From Hirudinaria manillensis (taxonomy: Eukaryota; Annelida; Clitellata; Hirudinida; Hirudinidae): DNA of 64,000 nucleotides. Shown here one piece after another: positions 1-57,262 of this stretch. The stretch lies in assembly GCA_034509925.1 (NCBI GenBank), contig CM067528.1:1-64000 (forward strand), in the 5' to 3' direction. Position numbers and translations under genes: made by a program. A model generated the notes under the pieces. It had not been told where the DNA came from and did no database searches. It was given only the letters and a program-made list of their open reading frames with translations. Within the stretch, counting starts at the first letter, position 1, and each line of letters begins with the position of its first letter.

Positions 1-1583
1 CACGGTAAATTAAACTAAAGAAATAAGTTGTTTATTTGGTAATAAAATTATTTGGAATCCAAATAAAATTAAAACCAGAAATGTAATCAAAATAAATTAA
101 ATTAATTAACAAGGGATGATAAATCATCGCCCAAAACAACAAATTACCTTAGCAATTTAACCACGGATTCGTCAATGAACGGTAAAATAAACTAAAGAAA
201 TAAGTTGTTTATTTGGTAATAAAATTATTGGGAACCCAAGTAAAATTAAAACCAAAAATGCAATGTAACAACAAGAGATGAAATCTCAGCCCTTGGAAAA
301 ACCACAGAAATAAGTTGTTTATTTGGTAAAAAAATTATTGGGAACCCAAAAATTAAAACCAAAAATGCAATTAACTTAGTAGTTTTACCACGAATTCATC
401 AATGAACGATAAATTAGTGTAACAACAAGAGATGAAATCTCAGCCCTTGAAGAAACCAAGGAAAAAGTTATTTATTTGGTAAAAAAATTATTGGGAACCC
501 AAAAAAAATTTTTTTAAAAACCAAAAATACAATAAATTAAAATAAAATAGTTTATAACGTGCGTTTTTCAAAAAAAATCTAAAAACGTATTTAACGTTAA
601 AGATTTTTGAGAATGACGAGCGAGGTATATTAAAATGCTAAAAAATACCAGGAAATGCTTCGCATTACAAGTATCAAAGCTATACCGAAATATATAATAT
701 ATATTATATATTATATAAAAGTTCTACAAAATTCTAAAGCGTATTTCACGATAAAAAAGAATTTAAGAACAAAAGTGAAAAAAGCAATTAAAAAATTACG
801 CTAAGAAATACCATTAAATTGCAACGCATAAAATGGTATCGAAGCAAAATAGAAGCAAGCACGTGTGTTTTGAACAAAACACTGATAACCACTAAGAAAT
901 ATCTTAGGATTATCAAGCGACAAAAATACGAATACTTCAACAGACAAAATACAAGGCAAAATACCGTTAATACGATTAAACTCACTAGGCCCTCGGCAGT
1001 TCTGCCCTCTAAGGTGAGCGAATAAGCGAAAAACGTAAAGATCGAAAAGCGGAAAATATTGTCCTTATATAGCCGAGGAAGGTCCAGTGTTGACCAATAG
1101 GAGACTCCTGAGCGGCGGTGGGAGCACTGCTTCCCCTGTTCTTTGAAGTGTTCATGCTGGCTAGCTTCTCTCTCCTCTAGAGGGGAGGTGGTGTCCTAGG
1201 AACTAGTTAATTAGTTATGCAGGCGTGACTCATTACATCGAGTTCAGGCCAGTCATTGTGTAATGCATCATTGGCCTAGAACTAGGCGGTAAGATGGCTA
1301 TACGGTTCATTGTTTGCAGATAAATCTAATAACAAAGATGGTATTAGGCAGGGTAGGGTTAAGACAGGAAATATAAATAAAACTGCACTTCCACTTTCTT
1401 TGTTAATAGATAATCCAGCAACTTATGTACCGTATTCGTCAAAAACACACAATGTAAAGCTAACTAAATTAACACTGCATCAAGAGACAATATATCGGCA
1501 ATTGATGATACAAACTGGCATTAAAGTTATTGGGATCCCAAATAAAAATTAGAGCCAGATACGGACAAAATGTTTAACTAATT
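1..1583 (-). mobile_element. Family A fragment, inverted and truncated
   Basis: This is the reverse complement of the family A 3' region at about 18,930-20,450. Read on the minus strand, it runs from the element's 3' tail through a telomeric junction, promoter, RNA motif and leader to the AT-rich subrepeats at position 1. Its telomeric junction (1,350-1,362) is degenerate: one T is missing, giving GGGTAGGG. It meets the 523-bp satellite at about 1,583 with no telomeric repeat at the join, unlike most other boundaries here. No coding capacity is visible. The short ORFs across the leader also occur in other copies but carry no recognisable domain. Confidence 0.8.
981..1018 (-). other. Covarying RNA motif, family A copy (minus strand)
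   Basis: Same 38-bp two-helix motif as at 19,206-19,243. Upstream on the minus strand are a TATA box (1,064-1,073) and a CCAAT box (1,093-1,097). Confidence 0.6.
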
Positions 1584-5365: not shown

Positions 5366-5404
5366 CCACCTTCGAGGGTTGTACGACAACCGAGGGCCTA
5401 GTGG
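5366..5404 (+). other. Covarying two-helix RNA motif, family C archetype
   Basis: The outer helix is CCAC (5,366-5,369) with GTGG (5,401-5,404). The inner hairpin is GGTTGT with ACAACC around loop ACG (5,377-5,391). Between them lie the internal-loop strands CTTCGAG and GAGGGCCTA. The same internal loop occurs in families A and B with different but still complementary helices. A TATA-like TTAAATA lies about 35 bp upstream, so the motif should fall at or just after the transcript start. Function unknown. It is not a hammerhead, because CUGAUGA and GAAA cores are absent. Confidence 0.6.
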
Positions 5405-6372: not shown

Positions 6373-7262
6373 CCACCAAATAAGGACACTCGTTAGATGT
6401 CGCCAAAATATATCGATTCTCGTGATAACGACTAATCAACTATTTGCGACAAATTATATAGCACTCACTCCTTGGTCACCTTCCTCGAACAATATTAGCC
6501 GTAAAATTCGACTAATTACGGATCCGCTCTAAGGAGCGTAGGTCGTAAAAAGCGGTCTCACGATTAAAGCAAATGTTTTCTTCTGCGAAAGCGGAACGAC
6601 ATTTTTTTCTCCTATCTTAACCCTAACCGTGTCAATACCATCGTAGGAGGAAACAATTTTCTTTAATCATTGAGTACAGCAATCAATCGAGGATTTTGAC
6701 AATCTCAGAAGATAACTAATCAATAAGAGAGAATATAACGACCCCCGTAAGGAAACGTCCCAATGTGCCGAGATTCACTGCGAGTTTTAACCGTCAAACG
6801 GCTATTTCTCAATGCATAATCTCTTATTTACAATAAATCCGAATGGATTTAAATCGACTCGATTTGCAGTCTCCAGAACTTTTTTGAAAAAGCCCCCGAT
6901 TAAGATGAAAACTTCATCGAAAACCGGACGAGAAACTGCCACCTGTCGACGAATATTAAACATTTCAGTTAGCTGATTCCCGGAAATGAAAATTCATCAA
7001 ATACGGGTCGGGAATATGTTATCTGTCACTGTTTAATGGATTTCAGGGCTCAGTCCATTGGACCAAAGCTCCTCGGAATACGGTGAATAATTCACCGAAA
7101 ACCGAGCAAAAATCCGCCAAATACTAAAACCCGAACCAGCAATCTATCGACGGAAATTTTCATGGTCTCCAGGGCTCAATCCAAAGGACCAAAACCCCTC
7201 GGAATAAGATCAAAAATTCATCGGAAACCGAGATTGAATCCGCCATCTGTCGAGATAAGCTA

Positions 7263-12779: not shown

Positions 12780-12818
12780 CCACCTTCGAGGGTTGTACGA
12801 CAACCGAGGGCCTAGTGG
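12780..12818 (+). other. Covarying RNA motif, family C copy
   Basis: Identical to 5,366-5,404, with the same TATA-like sequence upstream (about 12,742). Confidence 0.6.
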
Positions 12819-14034: not shown

Positions 14035-14311
14035 TAACCCTAACCCTAACCCTAACCCTAACCCTAACCCTAACCCTAACCCTAACCCTAACCCTAACCC
14101 TAACCCTAACCCTAACCCTAACCCTAACCCTAACCCTAACCCTAACCCTAACCCTAACCCTAACCCTAACCCTAACCCTAACCCTAACCCTAACCCTAAC
14201 CCTAACCCTAACCCTAACCCTAACCCTAACCCTAACCCTAACCCTAACCCTAACCCTAACCCTAACCCTAACCCTAACCCTAACCCTAACCCTAACCCTA
14301 ACCCTAACCCT
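14035..14311 (+). repeat. Telomere repeat block (CCCTAA)n, 277 bp
   Basis: About 46 uninterrupted TAACCC units, joined on the left to the 3' end of C unit 2 and on the right to the 5' end of the full-length A element, nine bases before the ORF1 ATG. It reads as the 3' anchor of C and the cap of A at once. Confidence 0.98.
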
Positions 14312-14319
14312 GGTTTTAC

Positions 14320-15513
14320 ATGGACAACGGGAGGTCTGTGGAGTTCTCCAAGACCGTGGAGACAATGACCTCTACCTTCGGTCCCAAGGTCCCGGGATTC
14401 GATGAGGAATATATCAGAGTGCGTGAGGAGGCGGCTAGAGTTATGGCGAACATAATGTTCGACACGAATCTAGCGTTTGTGCTAAACAAGCACAACCAGT
14501 CTGTCTGCGAATTACGGGCGGTCCTTAATAGTGGAGTGACTGTGGATGAAGAAATTCTGATGCAGGCGTTCTCCTATAAGAAAGTCAGTAAGAAGCATGA
14601 CAGCTGGGATAATGAGAGGTTCAATGAAATGGAGAAATCCATCTTTGATTTTGTACTGGAGGATTCTCCGTGCAAACATACTTCTTATTTAGAAATTCCC
14701 CAGGCTCTCACAGCCTGGAGATCTCTCTTGGGTGAAAAACGACCTGCTGAGGATACCCCTGCACAGGTCGCTCCTGCAAAAAAACGCAGGATTCGTGGAC
14801 CTGAGGTTAAGGTTAGCAGGGAAACCACTATACCTTTCTTGGAATCCGTGGAGGTGCCTCCCCCAATTCCATCCACTAGTACCCCTGCCCGCCCCCTGTC
14901 TCCCCCATTTGATCCGAGCTTACTCGACGACTCCTTGGAGAAGGAAATGGAATCCCTTTCCATCCCTTCCCCAAACAGACCTACCCTCGGACCAACCATC
15001 GAACCAACCGTCGAACCAACCGTCGGACCTACTATCGTACCAACCGTCGGACCTACTATCGTACCAACCAATGAGGAAATGAACACGAGGACCACCAGGG
15101 TTCCCAGTGGTCCTCCTAACACAGGTTTGTGCTTAATCCATGGTATTAGTACTGTGAAACTAAAGAGGTTTTCCACGGTATCGGTGATTGCCGACGTCGT
15201 CCTCAGCCTACTTAAAGTAGCATTTGGGGTAAACCGGGATTCTGAGTGGGCTTTCCTGAATGGGAAAATCAACCCAGAAATCCATAATTCTTTAAAATGT
15301 TGTGAGAGGATCCCCTCACAATATTCGATTATTGAGCTACGTGATTGGGCCATCCATATAAGCAAATCTATGGTATCCGATAGTTTTGTTTGTGTGGGCT
15401 ATAAACTTAGAGTTTCTAGACTGAAATTGACCTTCAATGAACTCTTTTCACAGGAACCCTGGTGGAAAGTAACAAGAGGACTCGTAAGAGATGAGCCTCG
15501 CTCCCTACGGTGA
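14320..15513 (+). CDS. ORF1 protein of family A element, 397 aa
   Basis: An unrecognised protein encoded directly upstream of the RT and in the same frame. Visible features are: an acidic/helical N-terminal part (residues 20-115); a bipartite nuclear-localisation-like cluster (KR at 140-141, KKRR at 154-157); a proline/serine-rich linker (180-222); a short repeat of PTVGPTI-type units (221-250); and a C-terminal part with paired cysteines (327-328) and WW (381-382). Nuclear entry and RNA or telomere binding would suit a telomere-attaching element, but that is inference. The ATG lies nine bases after the telomere block and an in-frame TAA precedes it, so the original N-terminus may be lost. 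The frame ends in a single TGA and continues open into the RT. Confidence 0.75.
   Translation: MDNGRSVEFSKTVETMTSTFGPKVPGFDEEYIRVREEAARVMANIMFDTNLAFVLNKHNQSVCELRAVLNSGVTVDEEILMQAFSYKKVSKKHDSWDNERFNEMEKSIFDFVLEDSPCKHTSYLEIPQALTAWRSLLGEKRPAEDTPAQVAPAKKRRIRGPEVKVSRETTIPFLESVEVPPPIPSTSTPARPLSPPFDPSLLDDSLEKEMESLSIPSPNRPTLGPTIEPTVEPTVGPTIVPTVGPTIVPTNEEMNTRTTRVPSGPPNTGLCLIHGISTVKLKRFSTVSVIADVVLSLLKVAFGVNRDSEWAFLNGKINPEIHNSLKCCERIPSQYSIIELRDWAIHISKSMVSDSFVCVGYKLRVSRLKLTFNELFSQEPWWKVTRGLVRDEPRSLR
15511..15513 (+). other. In-frame UGA between ORF1 and RT, candidate readthrough stop
   Basis: ORF1 and the RT share a frame and are separated only by this TGA. The next codon is CTG, close to the leaky UGA-CUA context. 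The conserved PLE N-terminal segment (NLSNFVFNNKELNVLQKG) begins within a dozen codons of the stop and has no ATG before it. The first ATG in the RT frame comes about 100 codons later. The second copy has the same TGA at 48,947-48,949. Confidence 0.6.
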
Positions 15514-17283
15514 CTGGATCCAGATAATAGGACATTCAACCTTTCTAACTTTGTGTTTAACAATAAAGAATTGAATGTCTTACAGAAGGGCATTTACTTT
15601 GTTCCGTGTTATAGTAAAGTGAATTCACAAAGAATCCATGAAGCTATTAAACGTTTTATTAGAACGCTAAAATTAAAAGCGTTTTTCAAAAGTGATTTAC
15701 CTAAAAGTGATAGCTTTAGAATACCGAGTGAGTGGGAACCACCTCTCGAATGTCTTGATTACAACACGAGGTTAATTCTCGATGAAGTAACAAATAAGTT
15801 CTACCAAACAATGAATAATTTTATTGTAAGAGATGCTACCGATTCTAGTCGGACGTCCTTTCGAACTTTGAACGAAATCACACATGGGTTTTCTGATTAC
15901 GCAAGTATCAATAAAATTGCTAATAACAAGTCAATTACTATTCGTAAGGCCGATAAAGGTTCGTCCTTTGTAATCCTTGATAAACAGAAATACCTCGATG
16001 AGGCAATTCGGCAATTAAATGATACGAAATTCTACGTTAAATTGACAAAGTCAATACAACCAGAAAACGCTCGACTATTGGAACAAAAATTGAAAAATGC
16101 CTTGGATACACACCAAATTAGTTCGAAATTGTTTAAATTTCTTACGGGCCCAAGACCGTTTAATAGTAGAAAATTCTACTTTTTACCTAAGGTTCATAAA
16201 CCGAAGAGTAAATGGTTTGATCCTAATTGCCCACCCGGTCGACCGATAGTTTCCGATGTCAAAACGGAATCGTCACGTATTGCTCAATTTATTGATTACC
16301 ATATCAATAAATACGCACAACACCTTCCCTCTTATGTGAGGGATAGCTTCGATTTTATTCAAAAGATTAAAGGGATTCATTTGGATGATAATGACATTTT
16401 TATAACGGGTGACGTTAGTTCGTTATACACCAATATGAATTTGAATAGAACGGTTGCTGTCATTAAACGTTGGTTTAACAAGCACCCGGTCGGTAACCGC
16501 CCTGATTCTTTGATCATCGATCTGCTCGAATTCACCTTGAAAAGAAATGATTTTGAATTTAATGGTGATTATTTCCTCCAAGTTTGTGGTTGTGCCATGG
16601 GTAAAAAGTACTCACCGGGTTTAGCCAACCTCTACTTAAGAGCGTTAGATAATTTAGTTCTAAATTATCAATTAAAACCCAAAATCTACCTTAGGTATCT
16701 GGATGATATTTTCATGATCTGGAAGGGTTCATCGGATGATGCTACTCTTCTGGAATCTGCAATGAACAATGTAATAACGGACATTAAAATTGAATTACAA
16801 TGCGATAAAAACGCAATCAATTTTCTGGATGTAACGGTATTCCGCGAACCAGATAACTCCATTGGTACAAAGGTGTTTTTTAAGGAGACTAACAATAGAC
16901 TTCTTTTAAACCCGGACTCATGCCACCCAAAACATACTTTTGGTGGTATTGTTAAATCACAATTCATTCGATATAAAAGATTATCTTCTAAGAATGAATA
17001 CTTCCTTAAAACCTCTAATGAGCTTATCCACAAACAAATTTCGCTGGGTTACAATCGCCAAACTATGAGAAAAATTCTCAGAGAAGTAGCGAATGCTTCG
17101 GATGATCGTCCAAGTAAAAATAAAGATAAGAAAATCTTACCTTTTGTAATTCCTTTTGGTGAAACCTCGAGGAAGGCAGTAAACAGCGTTAGAAGAGTTC
17201 TCTCCGAAGATGATTTCTTCAGAAACTTCACGATCGTCTCAGCCTTCGAAAAAGGAAGTAATCTCCTCTCGAAATTCTTCTGA
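15514..17283 (+). CDS. Penelope-like reverse transcriptase, no GIY-YIG domain
   Basis: An RT that would copy element RNA onto a 3' OH, here probably the telomeric overhang. Numbering from the GTG at 15,553 (576 aa): the PLE N-terminal motif at 1-20, KADKG at 132-136, the PKVHKP...GRPIVS region at 212-234, motif A GDVSSLYTN (Asp287), motif B QVCGCAMGKKYSPG (343-356), and motif C RYLDD (Asp384, Asp385). The catalytic aspartates are intact. The C-terminal linker (KILPFVIPF ... GSNLLSKFF) is the part that precedes GIY-YIG in other PLEs, and the frame ends there. No GIY-YIG-like sequence follows in any frame I read. No ATG lies near the N-terminus, so translation by readthrough from ORF1 (a fusion of about 987 aa) is likelier than independent initiation. 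Confidence 0.9.
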   Translation: MDPDNRTFNLSNFVFNNKELNVLQKGIYFVPCYSKVNSQRIHEAIKRFIRTLKLKAFFKSDLPKSDSFRIPSEWEPPLECLDYNTRLILDEVTNKFYQTMNNFIVRDATDSSRTSFRTLNEITHGFSDYASINKIANNKSITIRKADKGSSFVILDKQKYLDEAIRQLNDTKFYVKLTKSIQPENARLLEQKLKNALDTHQISSKLFKFLTGPRPFNSRKFYFLPKVHKPKSKWFDPNCPPGRPIVSDVKTESSRIAQFIDYHINKYAQHLPSYVRDSFDFIQKIKGIHLDDNDIFITGDVSSLYTNMNLNRTVAVIKRWFNKHPVGNRPDSLIIDLLEFTLKRNDFEFNGDYFLQVCGCAMGKKYSPGLANLYLRALDNLVLNYQLKPKIYLRYLDDIFMIWKGSSDDATLLESAMNNVITDIKIELQCDKNAINFLDVTVFREPDNSIGTKVFFKETNNRLLLNPDSCHPKHTFGGIVKSQFIRYKRLSSKNEYFLKTSNELIHKQISLGYNRQTMRKILREVANASDDRPSKNKDKKILPFVIPFGETSRKAVNSVRRVLSEDDFFRNFTIVSAFEKGSNLLSKFF

Positions 17284-17339
17284 ACGAATGGACTCTTGAT
17301 GATATTCTGGACATCCATCTCGATGATGCTAAACCTCTT

Positions 17340-18940
17340 GTAGCCTGTACCGAATGAAAATCATAATTGATTTTTAAGAAAAGGAATTATTTGTACACAT
17401 GGTGAGCAGAATAATTATAAAAATTATCTTTTGTACGCTAATATCAACTAAATAACACTTCTGAGATTTCCAATAAGAGATTTCTTATTGAAAAAATGCT
17501 GAATCATGCTAAACCAATAAAAGTGGTTGTATCAATTCACATCTCATTCGATATAAAGATTATCTTAAAAAGATTTTCTTTGTCGACTGAATACTCCCCT
17601 TATATACTCCACTAAGTTACAATCACTATGCCTGTGACGATCGTCAAGACATTTTTTTCGAATATAAGAAATTCTTACCATTCATAACTCTCTTCGATAA
17701 ACCAGGAGGATAATTGATGATTTGTCTCCTATGACGGAATTCGTCGGGAACCTCAACGTCATATTATCGTTAGATATACAAAGAACGATAATTGGAACGG
17801 ATCATTCGAGACCGCGTAACTTTGAGGAATCTACAAGGATAAAACAAAAGAATTTATTTTTAAAAATTAATTTTTTAAGAATAAATTTTTGTATAATAAA
17901 TTTTTGAAAAATAATTTTCAATAAATTTGGAGTATATTATGACAATAATTATCTTTTCTGAGATTTCCAATAAGAGATTTCTTATTGAAAAAATGCTGAA
18001 TCATGCTAACCAATAAAAGTGGTTGTATCAATTCACATCTCATTCGATATAAAGATTATCTTAAAAAGATTTTCTTGGTCGACTGAATACTCCCCTTATA
18101 TACTCCACTAAGTTACAATCACTATGCCTGTGACGATCGTCAAGACATTTTTTTTCGAATATAAGAAATTCTTACCATTCATAACTCTCTTCGATTAACC
18201 AGGAGGATAATTGATGATTTGTCTCCTATGACGGAATTCGTCGGGAACCTCAACGTCATATTATCGTTAGATATACCAAGAACGATAATTGGAACGGATC
18301 ATTCGAGGCCGCGTAACTTTGAGGAATCTATTAGAATAAAACAAAAGAATTTATTTTTAAAATTTAATTTTTTAAGAATAAATTTCTGTATTTTTGAAAA
18401 ATTAATTTTCAAAAAATTTGGAGTATATTATGACAATAATTATCTTTTGGATGTAACGGGTTTCCGTGAACTTGATAATTCTTGATACGAATACATTTCT
18501 TAATAAAGAAGGAGATTAATTAGAGATTTCTTTCCTTATAAAAAATGCTGAATCATGCCACCCAAAATTATATGTTTGGGTATCCAGCTATCTCAGAAAT
18601 CAATAGTTTCATTAGATCACCTTCTAAGAATGAATATTACTTAGAAAATTCTATTGAACTTATCGACAAAGATATTTCGCCACTGTACAATCACCTAACT
18701 TTGAGAAGTATTCTCATAGAAATTACAAATGCTTCTGACGATCGTCTAAGTAGTATTTTAAAGTCTTACCCGTTATAGTTCCTTTGGGTAAAAACCACTG
18801 GGAACGACAGGAGACAACAACAGAAGATAGCATCAGGAATGTTCACCCCAGGGATGAACTCTTCAGGAACCTCACCGTCATCTTGGCGTTCGAAAAAGGA
18901 AGTTACTTCTGTCCGAAGGAACGTAGCCATCTTACCGCCT
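17340..18940 (+). pseudogene. Tandem decayed copies of the RT C-terminal coding region
   Basis: Two direct repeats of about 498 bp (starting near 17,461 and 17,959) and a third, more divergent segment (about 18,420-18,940) align with the end of the RT gene. Landmarks are 'CATTCGATATAAAGATTATCTT', seen as ATTCGATATAAA then GATTATCTT, and 'GACGATCGTC'. In the third copy a 77-aa frame (18,545-18,778) matches the SCHPKHTFGG to ANASDD part of the RT. At about 18,886-18,920 the last RT codons reappear (RNLTVILAFEKGS). Frameshifts and stops exclude function as protein. The element's 3' untranslated region is thus built from its own RT tail. Confidence 0.8.
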
Positions 18941-19119
18941 AGTTCTAGGCCAAGGATGCATTACACAATGACTGGCCTGAACTCGATGTAATGAGTCACG
19001 CCTGCATAACTAATTAACTAGTTCCTAGGACACCACCTCCCCTCTAGAGGAGAGAGAAGCTAGCCAGCATGAACACTTCAAAGGACAGGGGAAGCAGTGC
19101 TCCCACCGCCGCTCAGGAG

Positions 19120-19160
19120 TCTCCTATTGGTCAACACTGGACCTTCCTCGGCTATATAAG
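19120..19160 (+). promoter_or_regulatory. Family A promoter: inverted CCAAT plus TATA
   Basis: CTATTGGTCAA (inverted CCAAT) lies about 25 bp upstream of GCTATATAAGG (TATA, 19,151-19,160). A transcript would start near 19,185, shortly before the RNA motif. The promoter is downstream of the RT gene and points to the right, toward the next element inward, as the 3' promoter of Drosophila HeT-A does. Every A-family unit keeps the same pair. Confidence 0.65.
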
Positions 19161-19205
19161 GACAATATTTTCCGCTTTTCGATCTTTACGTTTTTCGCTT
19201 ATTCG

Positions 19206-19243
19206 CTCACCTTAGAGGGCAGAACTGCCGAGGGCCTAGTGAG
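19206..19243 (+). other. Covarying two-helix RNA motif, family A archetype
   Basis: Outer helix CTCAC (19,206-19,210) with GTGAG (19,239-19,243). Inner hairpin GGCAG/CTGCC with loop AA. Internal-loop strands CTTAGAG and GAGGGCCTA. The 3' helix strand continues as GTGAGT, which also resembles a 5' splice site. That reading explains the outer 3' strand in A but not the paired change in C (GTGG with CCAC). Confidence 0.65.
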
Positions 19244-19439
19244 TTTAATCGTATTAACGGTATTTTGCCTTGTATTTTGTCTGTTGAAGTATTCGTATTT
19301 TTGTCGCTTGATAATCCTAAGATATTTCTTAGTGGTTATCAGTGTTTTGTTCAAAACACACGTGCTTGCTTCTATTTTGCTTCGATACCATTTTATGCGT
19401 TGCAATTTAATGGTATTTCTTAGCGTAATTTTTTAATTG

Positions 19440-20456
19440 CTTTTTTCACTTTTGTTCTTAAATTCTTTTTTATCGTGAAATACGCTTTAGAATTTTGTAG
19501 AACTTTTATATAATATATAATATATATTATATATTTCGGTATAGCTTTGATACTTGTAATGCGAAGCATTTCCTGGTATTTTTTAGCATTTTAATATACC
19601 TCGCTCGTCATTCTCAAAAATCTTTAAAGTTAAATACGTTATTAGATTTTTTTTGAAAAACGCACGTTATAAAATATTTTATTTTAATTTATTGTTTTTT
19701 TTGTTTTTAAAAATTTATTTTGGGTTCCCAATAATTTTTTTACCAAATAAATAACCTTTTTCTTTGGTTTCTTCAAGGGCTGAGATTTCATCTCTTGTTG
19801 TTACACTAATTTATCGTTCATTGATGAATTCGTTGTAAAACTACTAAGTTAATTTAATTGCATCTTTGGTTTTAATTTTTGGGTTCCCAATAATTTTTTT
19901 ACCAAATAAACAACTTATTTCTGTGGTTTTTCCAAGGGCTGAGATTTCATCTCTTGTTGTTACACTAATTTATCGTTCATTGATGAATTCGTGGTAAAAC
20001 TACTAAGTTAATTTGTTGTTTTGGGCGATGATTTATCATCCCTTATTAATCTAATAGTTTTTTTTAAAAAAAACGTGCTTCGACGGGTAATTAATTATTT
20101 ATTAAGTGAATTTGCAATCGGTTTCGTTATTTTCTCCTTAGGTTCTTTCTACGATAAACACGTTTTAAGAATTTTTTGAGAACATACGACTCTCGAATAC
20201 TACTTTAATTCCAAGCTTGCTTAGCAATTCTTGGCGTTGTAGTTAAACATTCTGTCCATATCTGGCTCTTATTTTTATGGGTTCCCATTAACTTTAATGC
20301 CAGTTTATATCATCAATTGCCGATATATTGTCTCTTGATGCATTGTTAATTTAGTTAGACTTATATTGTGTGTTTTTGACGACCACGATACATAATTTGC
20401 TAGATTGTCTACTAACAAAGAAAGTGGAAGTGCAGTTTTATTTATATTTTCTATTC
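19440..20456 (+). repeat. Family A AT-rich 3' region with subrepeats
   Basis: Non-coding. It holds an ATATAATATATATTATAT palindrome (about 19,505), 160-190-bp subrepeats marked by GGGTTCCCAATAATTTT and GATGATTTATCATC, and the terminal segment with GAAAGTGGAAGTGCAG before the telomere block. Confidence 0.75.
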
Positions 20457-23521: not shown

Positions 23522-23559
23522 CTCACTAGGCCCTCGGCAGTTCTGCCCTCTAAGGTGAG
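23522..23559 (-). other. Covarying RNA motif, inverted A unit 1
   Basis: Same sequence as 19,206-19,243. A minus-strand TATA (CTTATATAGC) lies at about 23,605. Confidence 0.6.
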
Positions 23560-26728: not shown

Positions 26729-26766
26729 CTCACTAGGCCCTCGGCAGTTCTGCCCTCTAAGGTGAG
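26729..26766 (-). other. Covarying RNA motif, inverted A unit 2
   Basis: Same sequence as 19,206-19,243, with the minus-strand TATA at about 26,812. Confidence 0.6.
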
Positions 26767-29928: not shown

Positions 29929-29966
29929 CTCACTAGGCCCTCGGCAGTTCTGCCCTCTAAGGTGAG
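29929..29966 (-). other. Covarying RNA motif, inverted A unit 3
   Basis: Same sequence as 19,206-19,243, with the minus-strand TATA at about 30,012. Confidence 0.6.
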
Positions 29967-31830: not shown

Positions 31831-34800
31831 TAACCCTAACCCTGCCTAATACCATCTTTGTTATTAGATTTATCTGCAATTATGAATCAATCGAAAGGAC
31901 TAGAGATGATATTCTCTAGGAACCTTTCCGTCATCTTGGCGTTCAAAAAAGGAAGTAATCTCCTTCCTAAGGGACGTAGCCATCTTGCCGCCTAGTTCTG
32001 GGCCAATGATGCATTACACAATGGCTGGCCTGAACTCGATGTAATGACTCACGCCTGCATAACTAATTAACTAGTTCCTAGGACACCACCTCCCCTCTAG
32101 GAGAGAGAAGCTAGCCAGCATGAACACTTCAAAGGACAGTGGAAGCAGTGCTCCCACCGCCGCTCAGGAGTCTCCTATTGGTCAACACTGGACCTTTCTC
32201 GGCTATATAAGGACAATATTTTCCGCTTTTCGATCTTCTCGTTTTTCGCTTATTCGCTCACCTTAGAGGGCAGAACTGCCGAGGGCCTAGTGAGTTTAAT
32301 CGTATTAACGGTATTTTGCCTTGTATTTTGTCTGTTGAAGTATTCGTATTTTGTTCACTTGATAATCCTGGGATTTTCTCAGTGGTTATCGGTGTTTTGT
32401 TTGAAAAACACTTGCTTGCTTCTATATTGCTTCGATACCATTTCATGCGTTGCAATTTTATGGTATTTCTCTGCATAACCTTATGATTGCTTTTATTCAC
32501 TTTGTTCTTAAATTCTCTTATCGTTAATACGCTTTGGAATTTCATTGAACACTGAGATTATATTTTGGTGTAGCCTGGATACTAGTAATGCGTAGCATTT
32601 TCTGGTATTTTTTAGCATTCCAATACACCCCACTCGTCGTTCTTAAAAATCGTCAACGTTTAATACGTTTTGATGGATCTTTTTAAATAAGCACATATTT
32701 TAATTTATTGCATTATGGTTTTAATTTTATTTGGGTTTCCAATAATTTTATTACCAATTAAAAAGCGCTTATTTTAATTTATTTTAATTTATTTCATTGC
32801 ACTCTGGTTTTAATTTTATTTGGGTTTCCAATAATTTTATTACCAATTATACAACTAGAAATCGTCAACGTTTAATACGTTTTGATAGATTTTTTAAAAT
32901 AAAAAGCGCTTATTTTACATTCTGGTTTTAATTTTATTTGGGTTTCCAATAATTTTATTACCAATGATACAACTAAAAATCGTCAACGTTTAATACGTTT
33001 TGATATTTTTTTAAAAATAAAAAGCGCTTATTTTAATTTATTTCATTGCATTCTAGTTTTAATTTTATTTGGGTTTCCAATAATTTTATTACCAGAAATC
33101 GTCAACGTTTAATACGTTTCGATAGATTTTTTAAAAATAAAAAGCGCTTATTTTAATTGCATTCTGGTTTTAATTTTATTTGGGTTTCCAATAATTTTAT
33201 TACCAATTATGCAACTAAAAATCGTCAACGTTTAATACGTTTTGATATATTTTTTTAAAATAAAAAGCGCTTATTTTTATTTTTATTTTTATTTATTTCA
33301 TTGCATTCTGTTTTTAATTTTATTTGGGTTTCCAATAATTTTATTACCAGAAATCGTCAATGTTTAATACGTTTTGATAGATTTTTTAAAAAATAAAAAG
33401 CGCTGATGTTAATTGCATTCTGGTTGTAATTCACAACTTTGTCATTGCATTCTGGGTTTAATTTTATTGGGGTGTCCAATAATTTTATGACCAGAAATCG
33501 TCAACGTTTAATACGTTCTGATAGATTTTTTTAAAAATAAACAGCGCTTATGATAATTGCCATCTGGTTTTAATTTTCTTAGGGTAGCCAATAATCTTAT
33601 TACCAATTTGGCAACTAAAAATCGTCCACGTTTAATACGTTTTGATATATTTTTTAAAAACAAAAAACGCTTATTTTAATTTTTATTTTTATTTATTTCA
33701 TTGCATTCTGTTTTTAATTTTATTTGGGTTTCCAATAATTTTATTACCAGAAATCGTCAATGTTTAATACGTTTTGATAGATTTTTTAAAAAATAAAAAG
33801 CGCTTATTTTAATTGCATTCTGGTTGTAATTCACAACTTTGTCATTGCATTCTGGTTTTAATTTTATTTGGGTTTCCAATAATTTTATTACCAGAAATCG
33901 TCAACGTTTAATACGTTCTGATAGGTTTTTTTAAAAATAAAAAGCGCTTATTTTAATTGCATTCTGGTTTTAATTTTATTTGGGTTTCCAATAATTTTAT
34001 TACCAATTTTGCAACTAAAAATCGTCAACGTTTAATACGTTTTGATATATTTTTTAAAAAACAAAAAAACGCTTATTTTAATTTTTAATTTTTATTTTTA
34101 TTTATTTCATTGCATTCTGTTTTTAATTTTATTTGGGTTTCCAATAATTTTATTACCAGAAATCGTCAATGTTTAATACGTTTTGATAGATTTTTTAAAA
34201 AATAAAAAGCGCTTATTTTAATTGCATTCTGGTTGTAATTCACAACTTTGTCATTGCATTCTGGTTTTAATTTTATTTGGGTTTCCAATAATTTTATTAC
34301 CAGAAATCGTCAACGTTTAATACGTTCTGATAGATTTTTTTAAAAATAAAAAGCGCTTATTTTAATTGCATTCTGGTTTTAATTTTATTTGGGTTTCCAA
34401 TAATTTTATTACCAATTTTGCAACTAAAAATCGTCAACGTTTAATACGTTTTGATATATTTTTTAAAAAACAAAAAACGCTTATTTTAATTTATTTTATT
34501 GCACTCTGGTTTTAATTTTATTTGGGTTTCCAATAATTTTATTAACAGAAATCGTCAACGTTTAATACGGTTTGATAGATTTTTTTAAAAGTAAAAAGCG
34601 CTTATTTTAATTGCATTCTGGTTGTAATTTTATTTGGGTTTCCAATAATTTTATTACCAATTATACAACTAAATTCTTTGGTTTCTTTAAGAGCTGAGTT
34701 TTCATCTCTTGTTTTAACACTGATTTATCGCTCCTTGACAAATTTGTGGTAAAACTACTAGGGTAATTTGTTAGTTGTATAGCTTTAATTTATAAGTGAT

Positions 34801-35212
34801 GATTTATCATCTCTTGCTGTCTTAATGTGCTTTGACGAGTTTTTAATAAGTGAATATGCAATCTATGTGTCATTTTTTCCAAAATTTCTTTTCACGATAA
34901 ATACGTCTGAAGAATTTTTTTGGAACATACGACTCTCTGTTACTGCATTATTTCAATTCTTGCGTTGCAATTCTTGGTAGTGCAGTTAACATTTTTTGTC
35001 CTAATCTGCTTTAACTTTAATGGGTTCCCAATATCTTTAATGCCAGATATCTAACTAGTCTTATTACATTCATCAATTGCCGACTCATGGTCTCTTGATG
35101 CATTGTGAATTTAGTTATGTTTATATTGTGTTTTTGACGAATACGGTACATAATTTGCTTGATAATCTTTTGACAAGGAAAGTGGAAGTGCAGTTTTATT
35201 AATTCTCGTCTT
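31831..35212 (+). mobile_element. 3.38-kb A-derived tandem unit 1
   Basis: The unit begins with the telomeric junction motif (TAACCCTAACCCTG, then CCTAATACCATC). Next come a 5' segment, the last ~18 RT codons (31,916-31,970, NLSVILAFKKGSNLL), CCAAT and TATA (about 32,175 and 32,203), the RNA motif (32,257-32,294), the leader and many ~110-bp AT-rich subrepeats, ending in AAAGTGGAAGTGCAG. No ORF1 and no RT domain are present, so mobility would depend on another element's RT. This unit is the most divergent of the five around 33,400-33,640. Confidence 0.85.
32257..32294 (+). other. Covarying RNA motif, tandem unit 1
   Basis: Same sequence as 19,206-19,243, 47 bp after the TATA. Confidence 0.6.
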
Positions 35213-38200
35213 TAACCCTAACCCTGCCTAATACCATCTTTGTTATTAGATTTATCTGCAATTATGAATCAATCGAAAGGACTAGAGATGATATTCTCTA
35301 GGAACCTTTCCGTCATCTTGGCGTTCAAAAAAGGAAGTAATCTCCTTCCTAAGGGACGTAGCCATCTTGCCGCCTAGTTCTGGGCCAATGATGCATTACA
35401 CAATGGCTGGCCTGAACTCGATGTAATGACTCACGCCTGCATAACTAATTAACTAGTTCCTAGGACACCACCTCCCCTCTAGGAGAGAGAAGCTAGCCAG
35501 CATGAACACTTCAAAGGACAGTGGAAGCAGTGCTCCCACCGCCGCTCAGGAGTCTCCTATTGGTCAACACTGGACCTTTCTCGGCTATATAAGGACAATA
35601 TTTTCCGCTTTTCGATCTTCTCGTTTTTCGCTTATTCGCTCACCTTAGAGGGCAGAACTGCCGAGGGCCTAGTGAGTTTAATCGTATTAACGGTATTTTG
35701 CCTTGTATTTTGTCTGTTGAAGTATTCGTATTTTGTTCACTTGATAATCCTGGGATTTTCTCAGTGGTTATCGGTGTTTTGTTTGAAAAACACTTGCTTG
35801 CTTCTATATTGCTTCGATACCATTTCATGCGTTGCAATTTTATGGTATTTCTCTGCATAACCTTATGATTGCTTTTATTCACTTTGTTCTTAAATTCTCT
35901 TATCGTTAATACGCTTTGGAATTTCATTGAACACTGAGATTATATTTTGGTGTAGCCTGGATACTAGTAATGCGTAGCATTTTCTGGTATTTTTTAGCAT
36001 TCCAATACACCCCACTCGTCGTTCTTAAAAATCGTCAACGTTTAATACGTTTTGATGGATCTTTTTAAATAAGCACATATTTTAATTTATTGCATTATGG
36101 TTTTAATTTTATTTGGGTTTCCAATAATTTTATTACCAATTAAAAAGCGCTTATTTTAATTTATTTTAATTTATTTCATTGCACTCTGGTTTTAATTTTA
36201 TTTGGGTTTCCAATAATTTTATTACCAATTATACAACTAGAAATCGTCAACGTTTAATACGTTTTGATAGATTTTTTAAAAATAAAAAGCGCTTATTTTA
36301 CATTCTGGTTTTAATTTTATTTGGGTTTCCAATAATTTTATTACCAATGATACAACTAAAAATCGTCAACGTTTAATACGTTTTGATATTTTTTTAAAAA
36401 TAAAAAGCGCTTATTTTAATTTATTTCATTGCATTCTAGTTTTAATTTTATTTGGGTTTCCAATAATTTTATTACCAGAAATCGTCAACGTTTAATACGT
36501 TTCGATAGATTTTTTAAAAATAAAAAGCGCTTATTTTAATTGCATTCTGGTTTTAATTTTATTTGGGTTTCCAATAATTTTATTACCAATTATGCAACTA
36601 AAAATCGTCAACGTTTAATACGTTTTGATATATTTTTTTAAAATAAAAAGCGCTTATTTTTATTTTTATTTTTATTTATTTCATTGCATTCTGTTTTTAA
36701 TTTTATTTGGGTTTCCAATAATTTTATTACCAGAAATCGTCAATGTGTCATACGTTGTGATAGATTGTTTAAAAAATAAAAAGCGCTTATTTTAATTGCA
36801 TTCTGGTTGTAATTCACAACTTTGTCATTGCATTCTGGTTTTAATTTTATTGGGGTTTCCAATAATTTTATTACCAGAAATCGTCAACGTTTAATACGTT
36901 CTGATAGATTTTTTAAAAATAAAAAGCGCTTATTTTAATTGCATTCTGGTTTTAATTTTATTTGGGTTTCCAATAATTTTATTACCAATTTTGCAACTAA
37001 AAATCGTCAACGTTGAATACGTTTTGATATATTTTTTAAAAACAAAAAACGCTTATTTTAATTTTTATTTTTATTTATTTCATTGCATTCTGTTTTTAAT
37101 TTTATTTGGGTTTCCAATAATTTTATTACCAGAAATCGTCAATGTTTAATACGTTTTGATAGATTTTTTAAAAAATAAAAAGCGCTTATTTTAATTGCAT
37201 TCTGGTTGTAATTCACAACTTTGTCATTGCATTCTGGTTTTAATTTTATTTGGGTTTCCAATAATTTTATTACCAGAAATCGTCAACGTTTAATACGTTC
37301 TGATAGGTTTTTTTAAAAATAAAAAGCGCTTATTTTAATTGCATTCTGGTTTTAATTTTATTTGGGTTTCCAATAATTTTATTACCAATTTTGCAACTAA
37401 AAATCGTCAACGTTTAATACGTTTTGATATATTTTTTAAAAAACAAAAAACGCTTATTTTAATTTTTAATTTTTATTTTTATTTATTTCATTGCATTCTG
37501 TTTTTAATTTTATTTGGGTTTCCAATAATTTTATTACCAGAAATCGTCAATGTTTAATACGTTTTGATAGATTTTTTAAAAAATAAAAAGCGCTTATTTT
37601 AATTGCATTCTGGTTGTAATTCACAACTTTGTCATTGCATTCTGGTTTTAATTTTATTTGGGTTTCCAATAATTTTATTACCAGAAATCGTCAACGTTTA
37701 ATACGTTCTGATAGATTTTTTTAAAAATAAAAAGCGCTTATTTTAATTGCATTCTGGTTTTAATTTTATTTGGGTTTCCAATAATTTTATTACCAATTTT
37801 GCAACTAAAAATCGTCAACGTTTAATACGTTTTGATATATTTTTTAAAAAACAAAAAACGCTTATTTTAATTTATTTTATTGCACTCTGGTTTTAATTTT
37901 ATTTGGGTTTCCAATAATTTTATTACCAGAAATCGTCAACGTTTAATACGTTTTGATAGATTTTTTTAAAAGTAAAAAGCGCTTATTTTAATTGCATTCT
38001 GGTTGTAATTTTATTTGGGTTTCCAATAATTTTATTACCAATTATACAACTAAATTCTTTGGTTTCTTTAAGAGCTGAGTTTTCATCTCTTGTTTTAACA
38101 CTGATTTATCGCTCCTTGACAAATTTGTGGTAAAACTACTAGGGTAATTTGTTAGTTGTATAGCTTTAATTTATAAGTGATGATTTATCATCTCTTGCTG

Positions 38201-38593: not shown

Positions 38594-41500
38594 TAACCCT
38601 AACCCTGCCTAATACCATCTTTGTTATTAGATTTATCTGCAATTATGAATCAATCGAAAGGACTAGAGATGATATTCTCTAGGAACCTTTCCGTCATCTT
38701 GGCGTTCAAAAAAGGAAGTAATCTCCTTCCTAAGGGACGTAGCCATCTTGCCGCCTAGTTCTGGGCCAATGATGCATTACACAATGGCTGGCCTGAACTC
38801 GATGTAATGACTCACGCCTGCATAACTAATTAACTAGTTCCTAGGACACCACCTCCCCTCTAGGAGAGAGAAGCTAGCCAGCATGAACACTTCAAAGGAC
38901 AGTGGAAGCAGTGCTCCCACCGCCGCTCAGGAGTCTCCTATTGGTCAACACTGGACCTTTCTCGGCTATATAAGGACAATATTTTCCGCTTTTCGATCTT
39001 CTCGTTTTTCGCTTATTCGCTCACCTTAGAGGGCAGAACTGCCGAGGGCCTAGTGAGTTTAATCGTATTAACGGTATTTTGCCTTGTATTTTGTCTGTTG
39101 AAGTATTCGTATTTTGTTCACTTGATAATCCTGGGATTTTCTCAGTGGTTATCGGTGTTTTGTTTGAAAAAACACTTGCTTGCTTCTATATTGCTTCGAT
39201 ACCATTTCATGCGTTGCAATTTTATGGTATTTCTCTGCATAACCTTATGATTGCTTTTATTCACTTTGTTCTTAAATTCTCTTATCGTTAATACGCTTTG
39301 GAATTTCATTGAACACTGAGATTATATTTTGGTGTAGCCTGGATACTAGTAATGCGTAGCATTTTCTGGTATTTTTTAGCATTCCAATACACCCCACTCG
39401 TCGTTCTTAAAAATCGTCAACGTTTAATACGTTTTGATGGATCTTTTTAAATAAGCACATATTTTAATTTATTGCATTATGGTTTTAATTTTATTTGGGT
39501 TTCCAATAATTTTATTACCAATTAAAAAGCGCTTATTTTAATTTATTTTAATTTATTTCATTGCACTCTGGTTTTAATTTTATTTGGGTTTCCAATAATT
39601 TTATTACCAATTATACAACTAGAAATCGTCAACGTTTAATACGTTTTGATAGATTTTTTAAAAATAAAAAGCGCTTATTTTACATTCTGGTTTTAATTTT
39701 ATTTGGGTTTCCAATAATTTTATTACCAATGATACAACTAAAAATCGTCAACGTTTAATACGTTTTGATATTTTTTTAAAAATAAAAAGCGCTTATTTTA
39801 ATTTATTTCATTGCATTCTAGTTTTAATTTTATTTGGGTTTCCAATAATTTTATTACCAGAAATCGTCAACGTTTAATACGTTTCGATAGATTTTTTAAA
39901 AATAAAAAGCGCTTATTTTAATTGCATTCTGGTTTTAATTTTATTTGGGTTTCCAATAATTTTATTACCAATTATGCAACTAAAAATCGTCAACGTTTAA
40001 TACGTTTTGATATATTTTTTTAAAATAAAAAGCGCTTATTTTTATTTTTATTTTTATTTATTTCATTGCATTCTGTTTTTAATTTTATTTGGGTTTCCAA
40101 TAATTTTATTACCAGAAATCGTCAATGTTTAATACGTTTTGATAGATTTTTTAAAAAATAAAAAGCGCTTATTTTAATTGCATTCTGGTTGTAATTCACA
40201 ACTTTGTCATTGCATTCTGGTTTTAATTTTATTGGGGTTTCCAATAATTTTATTACCAGAAATCGTCAACGTTTAATACGTTCTGATAGATTTTTTAAAA
40301 ATAAAAAGCGCTTATTTTAATTGCATTCTGGTTTTAATTTTATTTGGGTTTCCAATAATTTTATTACCAATTTTGCAACTAAAAATCGTCAACGTTTAAT
40401 ACGTTTTGATATATTTTTTAAAAACAAAAAACGCTTATTTTAATTTTTATTTTTATTTATTTCATTGCATTCTGTTTTTAATTTTATTTGGGTTTCCAAT
40501 AATTTTATTACCAGAAATCGTCAATGTTTAATACGTTTTGATAGATTTTTTAAAAAATAAAAAGCGCTTATTTTAATTGCATTCTGGTTGTAATTCACAA
40601 CTTTGTCATTGCATTCTGGTTTTAATTTTATTTGGGTTTCCAATAATTTTATTACCAGAAATCGTCAACGTTTAATACGTTCTGATAGGTTTTTTTAAAA
40701 ATAAAAAGCGCTTATTTTAATTGCATTCTGGTAATAATTTTATTTGGGTTTCCAATAATTTTATTACCAATTTTGCAACTAAAAATCGTCAACGTTTAAT
40801 ACGTTTTGATATATTTTTTAAAAAACAAAAAACGCTTATTTTAATTTTTAATTTTTATTTTTATTTATTTCATTGCATTCTGTTTTTAATTTTATTTGGG
40901 TTTCCAATAATTTTATTACCAGAAATCGTCAATGTTTAATACGTTTTGATAGATTTTTTAAAAAATAAAAAGCGCTTATTTTAATTGCATTCTGGTTGTA
41001 ATTCACAACTTTGTCATTGCATTCTGGTTTTAATTTTATTTGGGTTTCCAATAATTTTATTACCAGAAATCGTCAACGTTTAATACGTTCTGATAGATTT
41101 TTTTAAAAATAAAAAGCGCTTATTTTAATTGCATTCTGGTAATAATTTTATTTGGGTTTCCAATAATTTTATTACCAATTTTGCAACTAAAAATCGTCAA
41201 CGTTTAATACGTTTTGATATATTTTTTAAAAAACAAAAAACGCTTATTTTAATTTATTTTATTGCACTCTGGTTTTAATTTTATTTGGGTTTCCAATAAT
41301 TTTATTACCAGAAATCGTCAACGTTTAATACGTTTTGATAGATTTTTTTAAAAGTAAAAAGCGCTTATTTTAATTGCATTCTGGTTGTAATTTTATTTGG
41401 GTTTCCAATAATTTTATTACCAATTATACAACTAAATTCTTTGGTTTCTTTAAGAGCTGAGTTTTCATCTCTTGTTTTAACACTGATTTATCGCTCCTTG

Positions 41501-41975: not shown

Positions 41976-44900
41976 TAACCCTAACCCTGCCTAATACCAT
42001 CTTTGTTATTAGATTTATCTGCAATTATGAATCAATCGAAAGGACTAGAGATGATATTCTCTAGGAACCTTTCCGTCATCTTGGCGTTCAAAAAAGGAAG
42101 TAATCTCCTTCCTAAGGGACGTAGCCATCTTGCCGCCTAGTTCTGGGCCAATGATGCATTACACAATGGCTGGCCTGAACTCGATGTAATGACTCACGCC
42201 TGCATAACTAATTAACTAGTTCCTAGGACACCACCTCCCCTCTAGGAGAGAGAAGCTAGCCAGCATGAACACTTCAAAGGACAGTGGAAGCAGTGCTCCC
42301 ACCGCCGCTCAGGAGTCTCCTATTGGTCAACACTGGACCTTTCTCGGCTATATAAGGACAATATTTTCCGCTTTTCGATCTTCTCGTTTTTCGCTTATTC
42401 GCTCACCTTAGAGGGCAGAACTGCCGAGGGCCTAGTGAGTTTAATCGTATTAACGGTATTTTGCCTTGTATTTTGTCTGTTGAAGTATTCGTATTTTGTT
42501 CACTTGATAATCCTGGGATTTTCTCAGTGGTTATCGGTGTTTTGTTTGAAAAACACTTGCTTGCTTCTATATTGCTTCGATACCATTTCATGCGTTGCAA
42601 TTTTATGGTATTTCTCTGCATAACCTTATGATTGCTTTTATTCACTTTGTTCTTAAATTCTCTTATCGTTAATACGCTTTGGAATTTCATTGAACACTGA
42701 GATTATATTTTGGTGTAGCCTGGATACTAGTAATGCGTAGCATTTTCTGGTATTTTTTAGCATTCCAATACACCCCACTCGTCGTTCTTAAAAATCGTCA
42801 ACGTTTAATACGTTTTGATGGATCTTTTTAAATAAGCACATATTTTAATTTATTGCATTATGGTTTTAATTTTATTTGGGTTTCCAATAATTTTATTACC
42901 AATTAAAAAGCGCTTATTTTAATTTATTTTAATTTATTTCATTGCACTCTGGTTTTAATTTTATTTGGGTTTCCAATAATTTTATTACCAATTATACAAC
43001 TAGAAATCGTCAACGTTTAATACGTTTTGTTAGATTTTTTAAAAATAAAACGCGCTTATTTTACATTCTGGTTTTACTTTTATTTGGGTTTCCAATAATT
43101 TTATTACCAATGATACAACTAAAAATCGTCAACGTTTAATACGTTTTGATATTTTTTTAAAAATAAAAAGCGCTTATTTTAATTTATTTCATTGCATTCT
43201 AGTTTTAATTTTATTTGGGTTTCCAATAATTTTATTACCAGAAATCGTCAACGTTTAATACGTTTCGATAGATTTTTTAAAAATAAAAAGCGCTTATTTT
43301 AATTGCATTCTGGTTTTAATTTTATTTGGGTTTCCAATAATTTTATTACCAATTATGCAACTAAAAATCGTCAACGTTTAATACGTTTTGATATATTTTT
43401 TTAAAATAAAAAGCGCTTATTTTTATTTTTATTTTTATTTATTTCATTGCATTCTGTTTTTAATTTTATTTGGGTTTCCAATAATTTTATTACCAGAAAT
43501 CGTCAATGTTTAATACGTTTTGATAGATTTTTTAAAAAATAAAAAGCGCTTATTTTAATTGCATTCTGGTTGTAATTCACAACTTTGTCATTGCATTCTG
43601 GTTTTAATTTTATTGGGGTTTCCAATAATTTTATTACCAGAAATCGTCAACGTTTAATACGTTCTGATAGATTTTTTAAAAATAAAAAGCGCTTATTTTA
43701 ATTGCATTCTGGTTTTAATTTTATTTGGGTTTCCAATAATTTTATTACCAATTTTGCAACTAAAAATCGTCAACGTTTAATACGTTTTGATATATTTTTT
43801 AAAAACAAAAAACGCTTATTTTAATTTTTATTTTTATTTATTTCATTGCATTCTGTTTTTAATTTTATTTGGGTTTCCAATAATTTTATTACCAGAAATC
43901 GTCAATGTTTAATACGTTTTGATAGATTTTTTAAAAAATAAAAAGCGCTTATTTTAATTGCATTCTGGTTGTAATTCACAACTTTGTCATTGCATTCTGG
44001 TTTTAATTTTATTTGGGTTTCCAATAATTTTATTACCAGAAATCGTCAACGTTTAATACGTTCTGATAGGTTTTTTTAAAAATAAAAAGCGCTTATTTTA
44101 ATTGCATTCTGGTTTTAATTTTATTTGGGTTTCCAATAATTTTATTACCAATTTTGCAACTAAAAATCGTCAACGTTTAATACGTTTTGATATATTTTTT
44201 AAAAAACAAAAAACGCTTATTTTAATTTTTAATTTTTATTTTTATTTATTTCATTGCATTCTGTTTTTAATTTTATTTGGGTTTCCAATAATTTTATTAC
44301 CAGAAATCGTCAATGTTTAATACGTTTTGATAGATTTTTTAAAAAATAAAAAGCGCTTATTTTAATTGCATTCTGGTTGTAATTCACAACTTTGTCATTG
44401 CATTCTGGTTTTAATTTTATTTGGGTTTCCAATAATTTTATTACCAGAAATCGTCAACGTTTAATACGTTCTGATAGATTTTTTTAAAAATAAAAAGCGC
44501 TTATTTTAATTGCATTCTGGTTTTAATTTTATTTGGGTTTCCAATAATTTTATTACCAATTTTGCAACTAAAAATCGTCAACGTTTAATACGTTTTGATA
44601 TATTTTTTAAAAAACAAAAAACGCTTATTTTAATTTATTTTATTGCACTCTGGTTTTAATTTTATTTGGGTTTCCAATAATTTTATTACCAGAAATCGTC
44701 AACGTTTAATACGTTTTGATAGATTTTTTTAAAAGTAAAAAGCGCTTATTTTAATTGCATTCTGGTTGTAATTTTATTTGGGTTTCCAATAATTTTATTA
44801 CCAATTATACAACTAAATTCTTTGGTTTCTTTAAGAGCTGAGTTTTCATCTCTTGTTTTAACACTGATTTATCGCTCCTTGACAAATTTGTGGTAAAACT

Positions 44901-52642: not shown

Positions 52643-52680
52643 CTCACCTTAGAGGGCAGAACTGCCGAGGGCCTAGTGAG
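52643..52680 (+). other. Covarying RNA motif, A element copy 2
   Basis: Same sequence as 19,206-19,243. Confidence 0.6.
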
Positions 52681-55429: not shown

Positions 55430-55507
55430 GGATATATAAGGACAAATTTATCGTTCTGTTTTCATTTATTTCGCCATCGAGGACGTAGAACGTCGAGGGC
55501 CTAGCGA
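55430..55507 (+). promoter_or_regulatory. Family B TATA box and covarying RNA motif archetype
   Basis: TATA GATATATAAG (55,431-55,440), then the motif at 55,471-55,507: outer helix TCGC with GCGA, inner hairpin GACGT/ACGTC with loop AGA, internal-loop strands CATCGAG and GAGGGCCTA. Compared with family A, both helices change on both strands while the loop strands stay nearly constant. Confidence 0.65.
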
Positions 55508-56039
55508 GTTTTGAACTACTGTACGGTATCTATTAAAATTTGTCTTATACTTTGTGTTTTTGTATTCTTGTGTTCAGTTTCTTCCTTATTTATAAAATAA
55601 GGATTTTACTTGCTCCTTCTCGCGATATTCTTATAACGCACGCGTGTATATAAAATTAGTAATTTATATATTTCGCCTGGTCACCTCTTTAAAATCTATT
55701 TTCAAGATTTAAGAGTGAGGATCCAGATTCTTACCGCTAACCTAGCATTTTTTCTTCCCTTTCTGGGAACTATTGCTTAGGTACTTTTAATTGAGATGTA
55801 CTGCTAGTTTATTAACAATTATTTGTGAAAAATAATTGTTTTCTCCCTAAGATTATTTCGAAGGGATATTACTTCCGTCTATTAGGCTTTTTCCTTATTT
55901 AATCCTGATATTTAAATTAAGACTATTGGAACGAAAGTGGAAGTACAAGCTTTTTAATTTTTCTTAACCCTAACCTTGTCTAATACCATCGTTCCAGTAT
56001 TTTAATTTGAATAAAAGGAATAGAAAGCGTGAATCGGAC

Positions 56040-57183: not shown

Positions 57184-57262
57184 GGATATATAAGGACAAA
57201 TTTATCGTTCTGTTTTTCATTTATTTCGCCATCGAGGACGTAGAACGTCGAGGGCCTAGCGA
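57184..57262 (+). promoter_or_regulatory. Family B TATA box and covarying RNA motif, copy 2
   Basis: TATA at 57,184-57,194 and motif at 57,226-57,262, as in copy 1 apart from one extra T in the spacer. Confidence 0.62.

Follow-up and report, generated by a model that had tools for sequence, protein, structure and literature searches.

Penelope-like retroelements (PLEs) encode reverse transcriptases (RTs) that share ancestry with telomerase. How PLEs without an endonuclease recognise their own RNA and the chromosome ends is poorly known. At the chromosome ends of Drosophila, a promoter in the 3' region of one HeT-A unit drives the next unit. The elements described here likewise carry a 3' promoter that reads from one unit into the next, but HeT-A is a non-LTR element of a fly without telomerase repeats, whereas these are PLEs among (TTAGGG)n.

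Athena elements and Terminons of bdelloid rotifers are described in passages of PMC3846280 and PMC6431247 as having a PLE-type RT without GIY-YIG and residing at chromosome ends, with copies 5'-truncated by telomere repeats, head-to-tail arrays, and reverse-complement telomere repeats at the 3' end. All these features recur here. In Terminons, as passages of PMC6431247 describe them, a hammerhead lies beside the reverse-complement telomere repeats, whereas here the repeats are present, a hammerhead was not found and another RNA fold, J, stands in its place. Further differences from Terminons are the motif under study, an extra fold at the RNA start, and the telomere unit, here TTAGGG. The Poseidon PLE of Anolis (PAc), the one PLE whose protein has been studied in vitro, resembles the present elements in its pLTR-ORF-pLTR units and in an RNA fold at the pLTR-ORF junction, but unlike them it has an endonuclease and a protein-assisted hammerhead (PMC11167929). 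That hammerhead acts only with protein and is dispensable for insertion (PMC11167929).

Host elements

The window, i.e. the whole stretch of 64,000 nt that was analysed, comprises bases 1-64000 of contig C3 in the Hirudinaria manillensis genome (148 Mb, 23 contigs). It is a subtelomere in which retroelements are set apart by (CCCTAA)n arrays. The preliminary description had assigned them to families with a Penelope-type RT, which was borne out by RVT_1 in Pfam and by protein relatives. The main features of the hosts are as follows.

14311..20456, plus strand: a single inserted element flanked on both sides by (CCCTAA)n arrays; copying passed through the motif at 19206
14308..15513, plus strand: ORF1, 5'-truncated by a telomere-repeat array, ending in UGA
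15514..17283, plus strand: Penelope-type RT frame, 589 aa, Pfam RVT_1 only, no GIY-YIG domain found
48950..50719, plus strand: second copy of the RT frame, 589 aa, Pfam RVT_1 only

Among the best 7987 candidates scored, the nearest RT proteins were six at 57-62% identity; GIY-YIG (PF01541) was unannotated in the ten nearest, and the eleventh (40%) carries one. No RT relatives were confirmed in viral contigs. The hosts thus bear two marks of endonuclease-deficient, telomere-associated PLEs, a PLE RT without GIY-YIG and a chromosome-end location, the latter evident from (CCCTAA)n at both element ends. Additionally, the places of the motif and those of the RT lie mostly near contig ends (exceptions include C12:3021226 and C10:3175783). 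Judged by sequence, the hosts are Penelope-like retroelements without a detected endonuclease at (TTAGGG)n chromosome ends.

The tandem unit runs from the motif through 1.25 kb, the 3' end, CCCTAACCCT and GCCTAATACCATC to the ORF1 ATG, and from there through the RT, a 3' fragment of a second RT and a TATA to the next motif. This order places the promoter in the 3' region of one unit, reading into the next. The tandem unit read has its ORF1 ATG 1308 nt past the motif start, with nine ATGs ahead of it. ORF1 and RT form one frame, interrupted by UGA CUG in all eight copies read (L145 differs in spacing). In the window, the in-frame UGA between them occupies 15511-15513 and 48947-48949. A single UGA followed by CUG suggests that the RT would be made by stop-codon readthrough.

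Some further observations concern the structure of the region. Between RT and promoter, type A elements carry the 3' fragment of a second, diverged RT (18447-18918 and 51884-52355), with 40-50% identity over most of residues 438-587. A type A block on the minus strand (23321-31734) runs opposite to its plus-strand neighbours, its 3'-truncated end lying at a (CCCTAA)n array. Near a contig end, locus L136 shows telomere-like letters in place of pLTR letters at 51-112 (C5, about 150-211), perhaps an assembly or polishing error. At 63263-63730 on the minus strand, a thioredoxin-domain frame ending in KDEL is PDI-like and possibly represents the first host gene inward of the telomere.

Sequence types of the motif

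The motif consists of an outer helix (P1) and an inner hairpin (P2) joined by a conserved internal loop, CWTMGAG / GAGGGCCTA. All 16 copies reported earlier were located, with coordinates and strands as claimed. A model with one copy per type (R1) retrieved every one of them, with no other hit in the window up to E = 10, and all 16 GAGGGCC sites in the 64 kb are motif copies. Those found by R1 are listed below.

19206..19243, plus strand: motif type A, P1 CTCAC/GTGAG, P2 GGCAG/CTGCC (the copy under study)
981..1018, minus strand: motif type A
23522..23559, minus strand: motif type A
26729..26766, minus strand: motif type A
29929..29966, minus strand: motif type A
32257..32294, plus strand: motif type A, tandem array of 3.38 kb units
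35639..35676, plus strand: motif type A
39020..39057, plus strand: motif type A
42402..42439, plus strand: motif type A
45783..45820, plus strand: motif type A
52643..52680, plus strand: motif type A
55471..55507, plus strand: motif type B, P1 TCGC/GCGA, P2 GACGT/ACGTC
57226..57262, plus strand: motif type B
5366..5404, plus strand: motif type C, P1 CCAC/GTGG, P2 GGTTGT/ACAACC
12780..12818, plus strand: motif type C
59031..59069, minus strand: motif type C

The three sequence types (A 11, B 2, C 3) are each invariant in their motif letters within the window, which thus holds three independent observations rather than 16. As had been stated, the families are unlike outside the motif: their 800-nt surroundings barely align, and the loop strands are conserved. 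In this comparison TATATAAGGACAA was also common to the A and B surroundings. Genome-wide, GAGGN{8,30}CGAGGGCCTA gave 137 matches against 7 with the reversed pattern; the matches listed were of types A, B and C, plus four singletons without the structure, and most of them lay close to contig ends.

A fourth, divergent family (D) was recovered through the RT protein, which gave 74 scored matches in the genome. For five of the RT copies, diverged or partial, the 3' flank was taken (C11:198353, C11:38091, C5:30614, C9:5172171 and C8:5086668). The two C11 copies have 63-72% amino-acid identity, and R1, trained on A, B and C alone, detected the motif beside both (E 6e-10 at C11:198353 and 1e-10 at C11:38091). 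The same search found no motif in the other three of these five flanks. As R1 was applied to the window and the RT flanks, it may have missed other families. In family D, P1 is TTCAC/GTGAA, P2 is GGTTG/CAACC and the loop strands are CGTCGAG (5') and GAGAGCTTA (3'); the hairpin loop has 6 nt, compared with 4 nt in A and 3 nt in B and C. Relative to C, one P1 pair has changed from C-G to T-A, and a T-T mismatch has become T-A. A search with loop variants was at background (82 matches versus 158 in the reversed control); three true D copies were recognised among its matches by their hairpin, the third of them at C12:3772. The loop letters GGCC (19233-19236 in the copy under study; A, B and C) are AGCT in D (motif of L177), and both are self-complementary, perhaps for an RNA-RNA contact; the change is a single event.

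Covariation and folding

Both helices had been described as keeping their pairing through changes on both strands, and for A, B and C this withstood shuffle and sliding controls. Their alignment had 95.8% of 24 cells paired and both-side changes in four of eight pairs, each value being reached by 6 of 500 shuffles. Pairing fell to 20.8-45.8% when partners were slid by 1-3 columns. A six-row alignment (A, one decayed A copy, B, C and two D copies) had 97.9% of 48 cells paired (0/500 shuffles), double changes in five of eight pairs (2/500) and a covariation score of 0.500 (0/500), the shuffles ignoring relatedness. The number of further pair types was unremarkable in both alignments, being reached by 343 and 425 of 500 shuffles, respectively. 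All families come from one genome, and C and D are related (65% over 900 nt).

Chance formation of the two helices is rare. With random flanks of 34% GC, 200,000 trials put the rate at which both helices have at least 4 Watson-Crick pairs near 3e-5 per site. At least 120 viral contigs had a chance match to the loop strands, and one of these (L014, GC-rich) had both helices of at least 4 pairs; P2 of at least 5 with P1 of at least 4 occurred in none of the viral-contig matches listed (at least 120).

Folding energy gives a different picture of the motif, which was no better than its shuffles (z -0.63 to +0.31, six folds). In 140-nt context, the energy model makes P1 improbable in A, B and C and P2 improbable in A and B; the weight of P1 is 0.01 in A, 0 in B, 0.04 or less in C and 0.35-0.48 in D. 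The motif fold would therefore need non-canonical contacts or a protein. An alternative helix within the loop (CCWTM with GAGGG) is energy-favoured in A and C; it was rejected, as D opposes C to A there. Kink-turn and tetraloop-receptor readings misfit some families.

There is little doubt that the motif is a real, conserved RNA element. With pairing kept while letters change, it is probably a working signal of these elements.

Promoter and RNA start

The motif had been placed just downstream of a TATA, near the RNA 5' end, and this position was supported by P1 lying 37-53 nt past the TATA start and by a junction in family D. The promoter elements in the window are listed below.

19153..19161, plus strand: TATATAAGG, TATA box of type A promoters, 53 nt ahead of P1
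55433..55441, plus strand: TATATAAGG of type B, 38 nt before P1
5329..5338, plus strand: TTAAATAGCC of type C, 37 nt before P1

The "TATA" of type C reads TTAAATA, a correction to the preliminary description. The distance from TATA start to P1 is 37-39 nt in B and C of the window and in D, 43 nt in a B copy on C13 and 53 nt in A. The C12 copy of D has telomere repeats up to a point 8 nt before P1: its (CCCTAA)n array gives way at once to ATGCTTTT and then P1. The ATGC of this junction lies exactly 30 nt past the TATA start in the D copy L177 (L176 has ATGT). Since the junction thus falls at the point predicted from the TATA of a sister copy, the simplest reading is that the cDNA reached the RNA 5' end. 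Such an RNA-start junction is known from this single copy; the search for it gave five matches, namely three overlapping readings of the C12 copy and two chance matches (control, four). It is very likely that the motif sits at the RNA 5' end. It would make up about the first 45-60 nt of the RNA of the element and recur near the 3' end of longer RNAs.

Closeness to the TATA and the predicted start in all four families would also suit a promoter site at the DNA level, where the inverted repeats serve a protein or a cruciform and not an RNA. The six rows hold a single G-U pair, so that sequence alone cannot tell RNA from DNA for the motif. However, a dimer site would keep its half-sites, not change them in pairs, and the TATA spacing varies from 37 to 53 nt (38 to 43 within B). 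A DNA site is considered highly improbable.

The 5'-terminal position is equally compatible with a translation or stability element, which would aid a capped RNA with a 1.3 kb leader or shield the 5' end from decay. The nine ATGs ahead of the ORF1 ATG would hinder simple scanning. On the other side, no known IRES or decay-resistant Rfam family matches, the leader could be spliced or the RNA start elsewhere, and the repeat of the motif at the 3' end is given no role. Such an element is an unlikely explanation.

Cleavage and splicing

Among the functions first proposed for the motif was self-cleavage. The motif would then be a new small ribozyme of two helices and a catalytic internal loop, in the role of the hammerheads of other PLEs. 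The copies speak against this. In the fetched regions, 54 of 55 distinct copies extend upstream past the predicted start, 53 with an exact TATA and C5:262 with altered letters; the only one that does not, the C12 copy of D, stops where the RNA start is predicted, so that its template was not cut inside the motif. Three further copies, outside the 55, likewise have the upstream TATA. Of 55 post-motif anchors, one sat at the edge of its locus; the complete motif stood upstream of each of the other 54, so that no checkable copy starts within it. A genome search for CCCTAA in the 30 nt ahead of GAGGGCCTAG, which may skip repeats, found nothing. As copies extend through the motif and none starts inside, templates were usually uncut; the argument covers RNAs that served as templates and leaves room for cleavage of others. 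Recombination may be the origin of some copies. Moreover, a cut at +10 to +50 would release just a short piece, and the hammerhead of the Anolis PLE lies at the pLTR-ORF junction, which is the place of J and not of the motif.

A hammerhead core has CUGANGA and GAAA between three helices. None had been noticed in these elements, in agreement with Rfam, which gave no hammerhead in the window up to E = 10 and none around one B motif copy up to E = 5. A regular-expression scan with stem II of at least 3 bp matched at 50640, 54924 and 56678 and nowhere at the motif. At gathering score, Rfam returned nothing in the window; up to E = 10 it gave five matches, all chance hits to bacterial sRNAs, two of which were RsaF overlapping two type C copies at E 6.4. 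No Rfam family matched around a B motif.

In favour of a new ribozyme, hammerheads are usual in PLEs (PMC11167929; passages of PMC6431247) and none was found in the window, and cutting only with protein or at a late stage is possible, as proposed for the Anolis hammerhead (PMC11167929). The shape also resembles that of twister-sister-like ribozymes (LINE-1, OR4K15), which passages of PMC11620745 describe as two stems with a conserved internal loop and a core of about 31-35 nt. These are described there as cutting at a conserved CA in the longer loop strand, whereas the motif strand GAGRGCYTA has no CA. Assignment to this class was rejected, the longer strand (GAGGGCCTA or GAGAGCTTA) lacking CA and Rfam giving no match. 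A ribozyme is quite unlikely, and self-cleavage less likely than a protein-binding signal.

A splice donor shared by all families had also been raised, and it failed as a rule. The letters at the donor position are GTGAGT in A, GTGGTA in C, GTGAAT in D and GCGAGT in B, so that B has GC instead of GT, and pairing is still kept. A related proposal is a dimer or splice-control element like that of retroviral leaders, in which GGCC joins two RNAs and P1 hides GTGAGT, leaving the full-length RNA unspliced. The type A GTGAGT does pair with CTCAC in P1, and self-complementarity is retained from GGCC to AGCT; but that change is one event, and as a donor the site reads GC in B and would be weak in the other two, C and D. 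The proposal appears improbable.

Junction fold J

The junctions between units carry a second covarying fold, J, in types A, A2, A3, B and C; it was not seen in the D loci. It spans the unit end, CCCTAACCC and the start of the next unit, and examples are given below.

35158..35260, plus strand: J, type A2
55912..56010, plus strand: J, type B
6566..6662, plus strand: J, type C
1310-1420, minus strand: J

Two helices of the fold covary, a long one and an inner one that closes a TTAACCCTAACC loop, and its core (GAAAGYGGAA with AATACCATC, of which the window has 11) is invariant. The loop is telomere-complementary (CCCTAACC). In J, 96.6% of 89 cells are paired; the 15 double-change cells and the covariation score were each reached by 0/500 shuffles, and the six pairs with double changes by 31/500. 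Its stability has z -3.4 to -5.2 in A, A2, A3 and B and -2.9 in C, whose best fold is different. In energy terms J is stable, whereas the motif is not. Furthermore, the sense strand has G-U at several J pairs, an indication of RNA. The core pattern had no match in viral contigs, and Rfam on a type B J gave weak chance matches only, mostly to miRNA models, and no hammerhead.

J is a candidate start site of reverse transcription, at which it may offer CCCUAACC to the TTAGGG overhang. In keeping with this, inserted copies carry (CCCTAA)n at their 3' ends; telomerase could be an alternative source of these repeats. The start-site stem-loop of PAc is AC-rich and lies 111-118 bp into the ORF (PMC11167929), whereas J directly precedes the ORF and is complementary to the telomere. 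One broader proposal is that two new folds replaced the hammerhead, namely the 5' motif and J, the latter as a telomerase-RNA-like template with a CCCUAACC loop at which the RT starts, and that one of them could be a new ribozyme class. This combination is doubtful.

Proposed role and significance

The preferred reading makes the motif a cis-acting element at the 5' end of the RNA, with protein binding as its most likely function; by analogy, a protein-binding or RNP role is given a probability of about 0.4. The motif lies directly behind the promoter in the pLTR, the terminal region that is repeated. The element's own protein, either the RT or the ORF1 product, would recognise it and thereby mark its RNA or assemble it as an RNP. 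Reverse transcription would start downstream at J, where CCCUAACC would pair with the TTAGGG overhang, and from J copying would run up to the RNA 5' end. The covarying helices, the conserved loop, the 5' position and the templates copied through the motif form the sequence basis of this scheme. In favour of the preferred reading, the start of reverse transcription in the Anolis PLE falls within a stem-loop close to the pLTR-ORF junction (PMC11167929), which is the place of J. The protein-binding part of the Anolis PLE is thought to lie within the first 172 nt of the ORF and not at the RNA 5' end (PMC11167929). This location, the energy models and the three of five flanks without the motif count against the protein-binding reading.

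No description of the motif was found at title and abstract level or in passages of the cited papers, a coverage outside which most subscription papers fall. A literature search for GAGGGCCTA over titles and abstract starts gave unrelated contexts among the matches listed. The elements are of a known kind, endonuclease-deficient telomeric PLEs, and what is new are the RNA folds and the missing hammerhead. The 5' element and J are small, concrete RNAs for the study of binding, self-cleavage and telomere-primed reverse transcription. Both folds suggest that hammerheads may be dispensable in telomeric PLEs.
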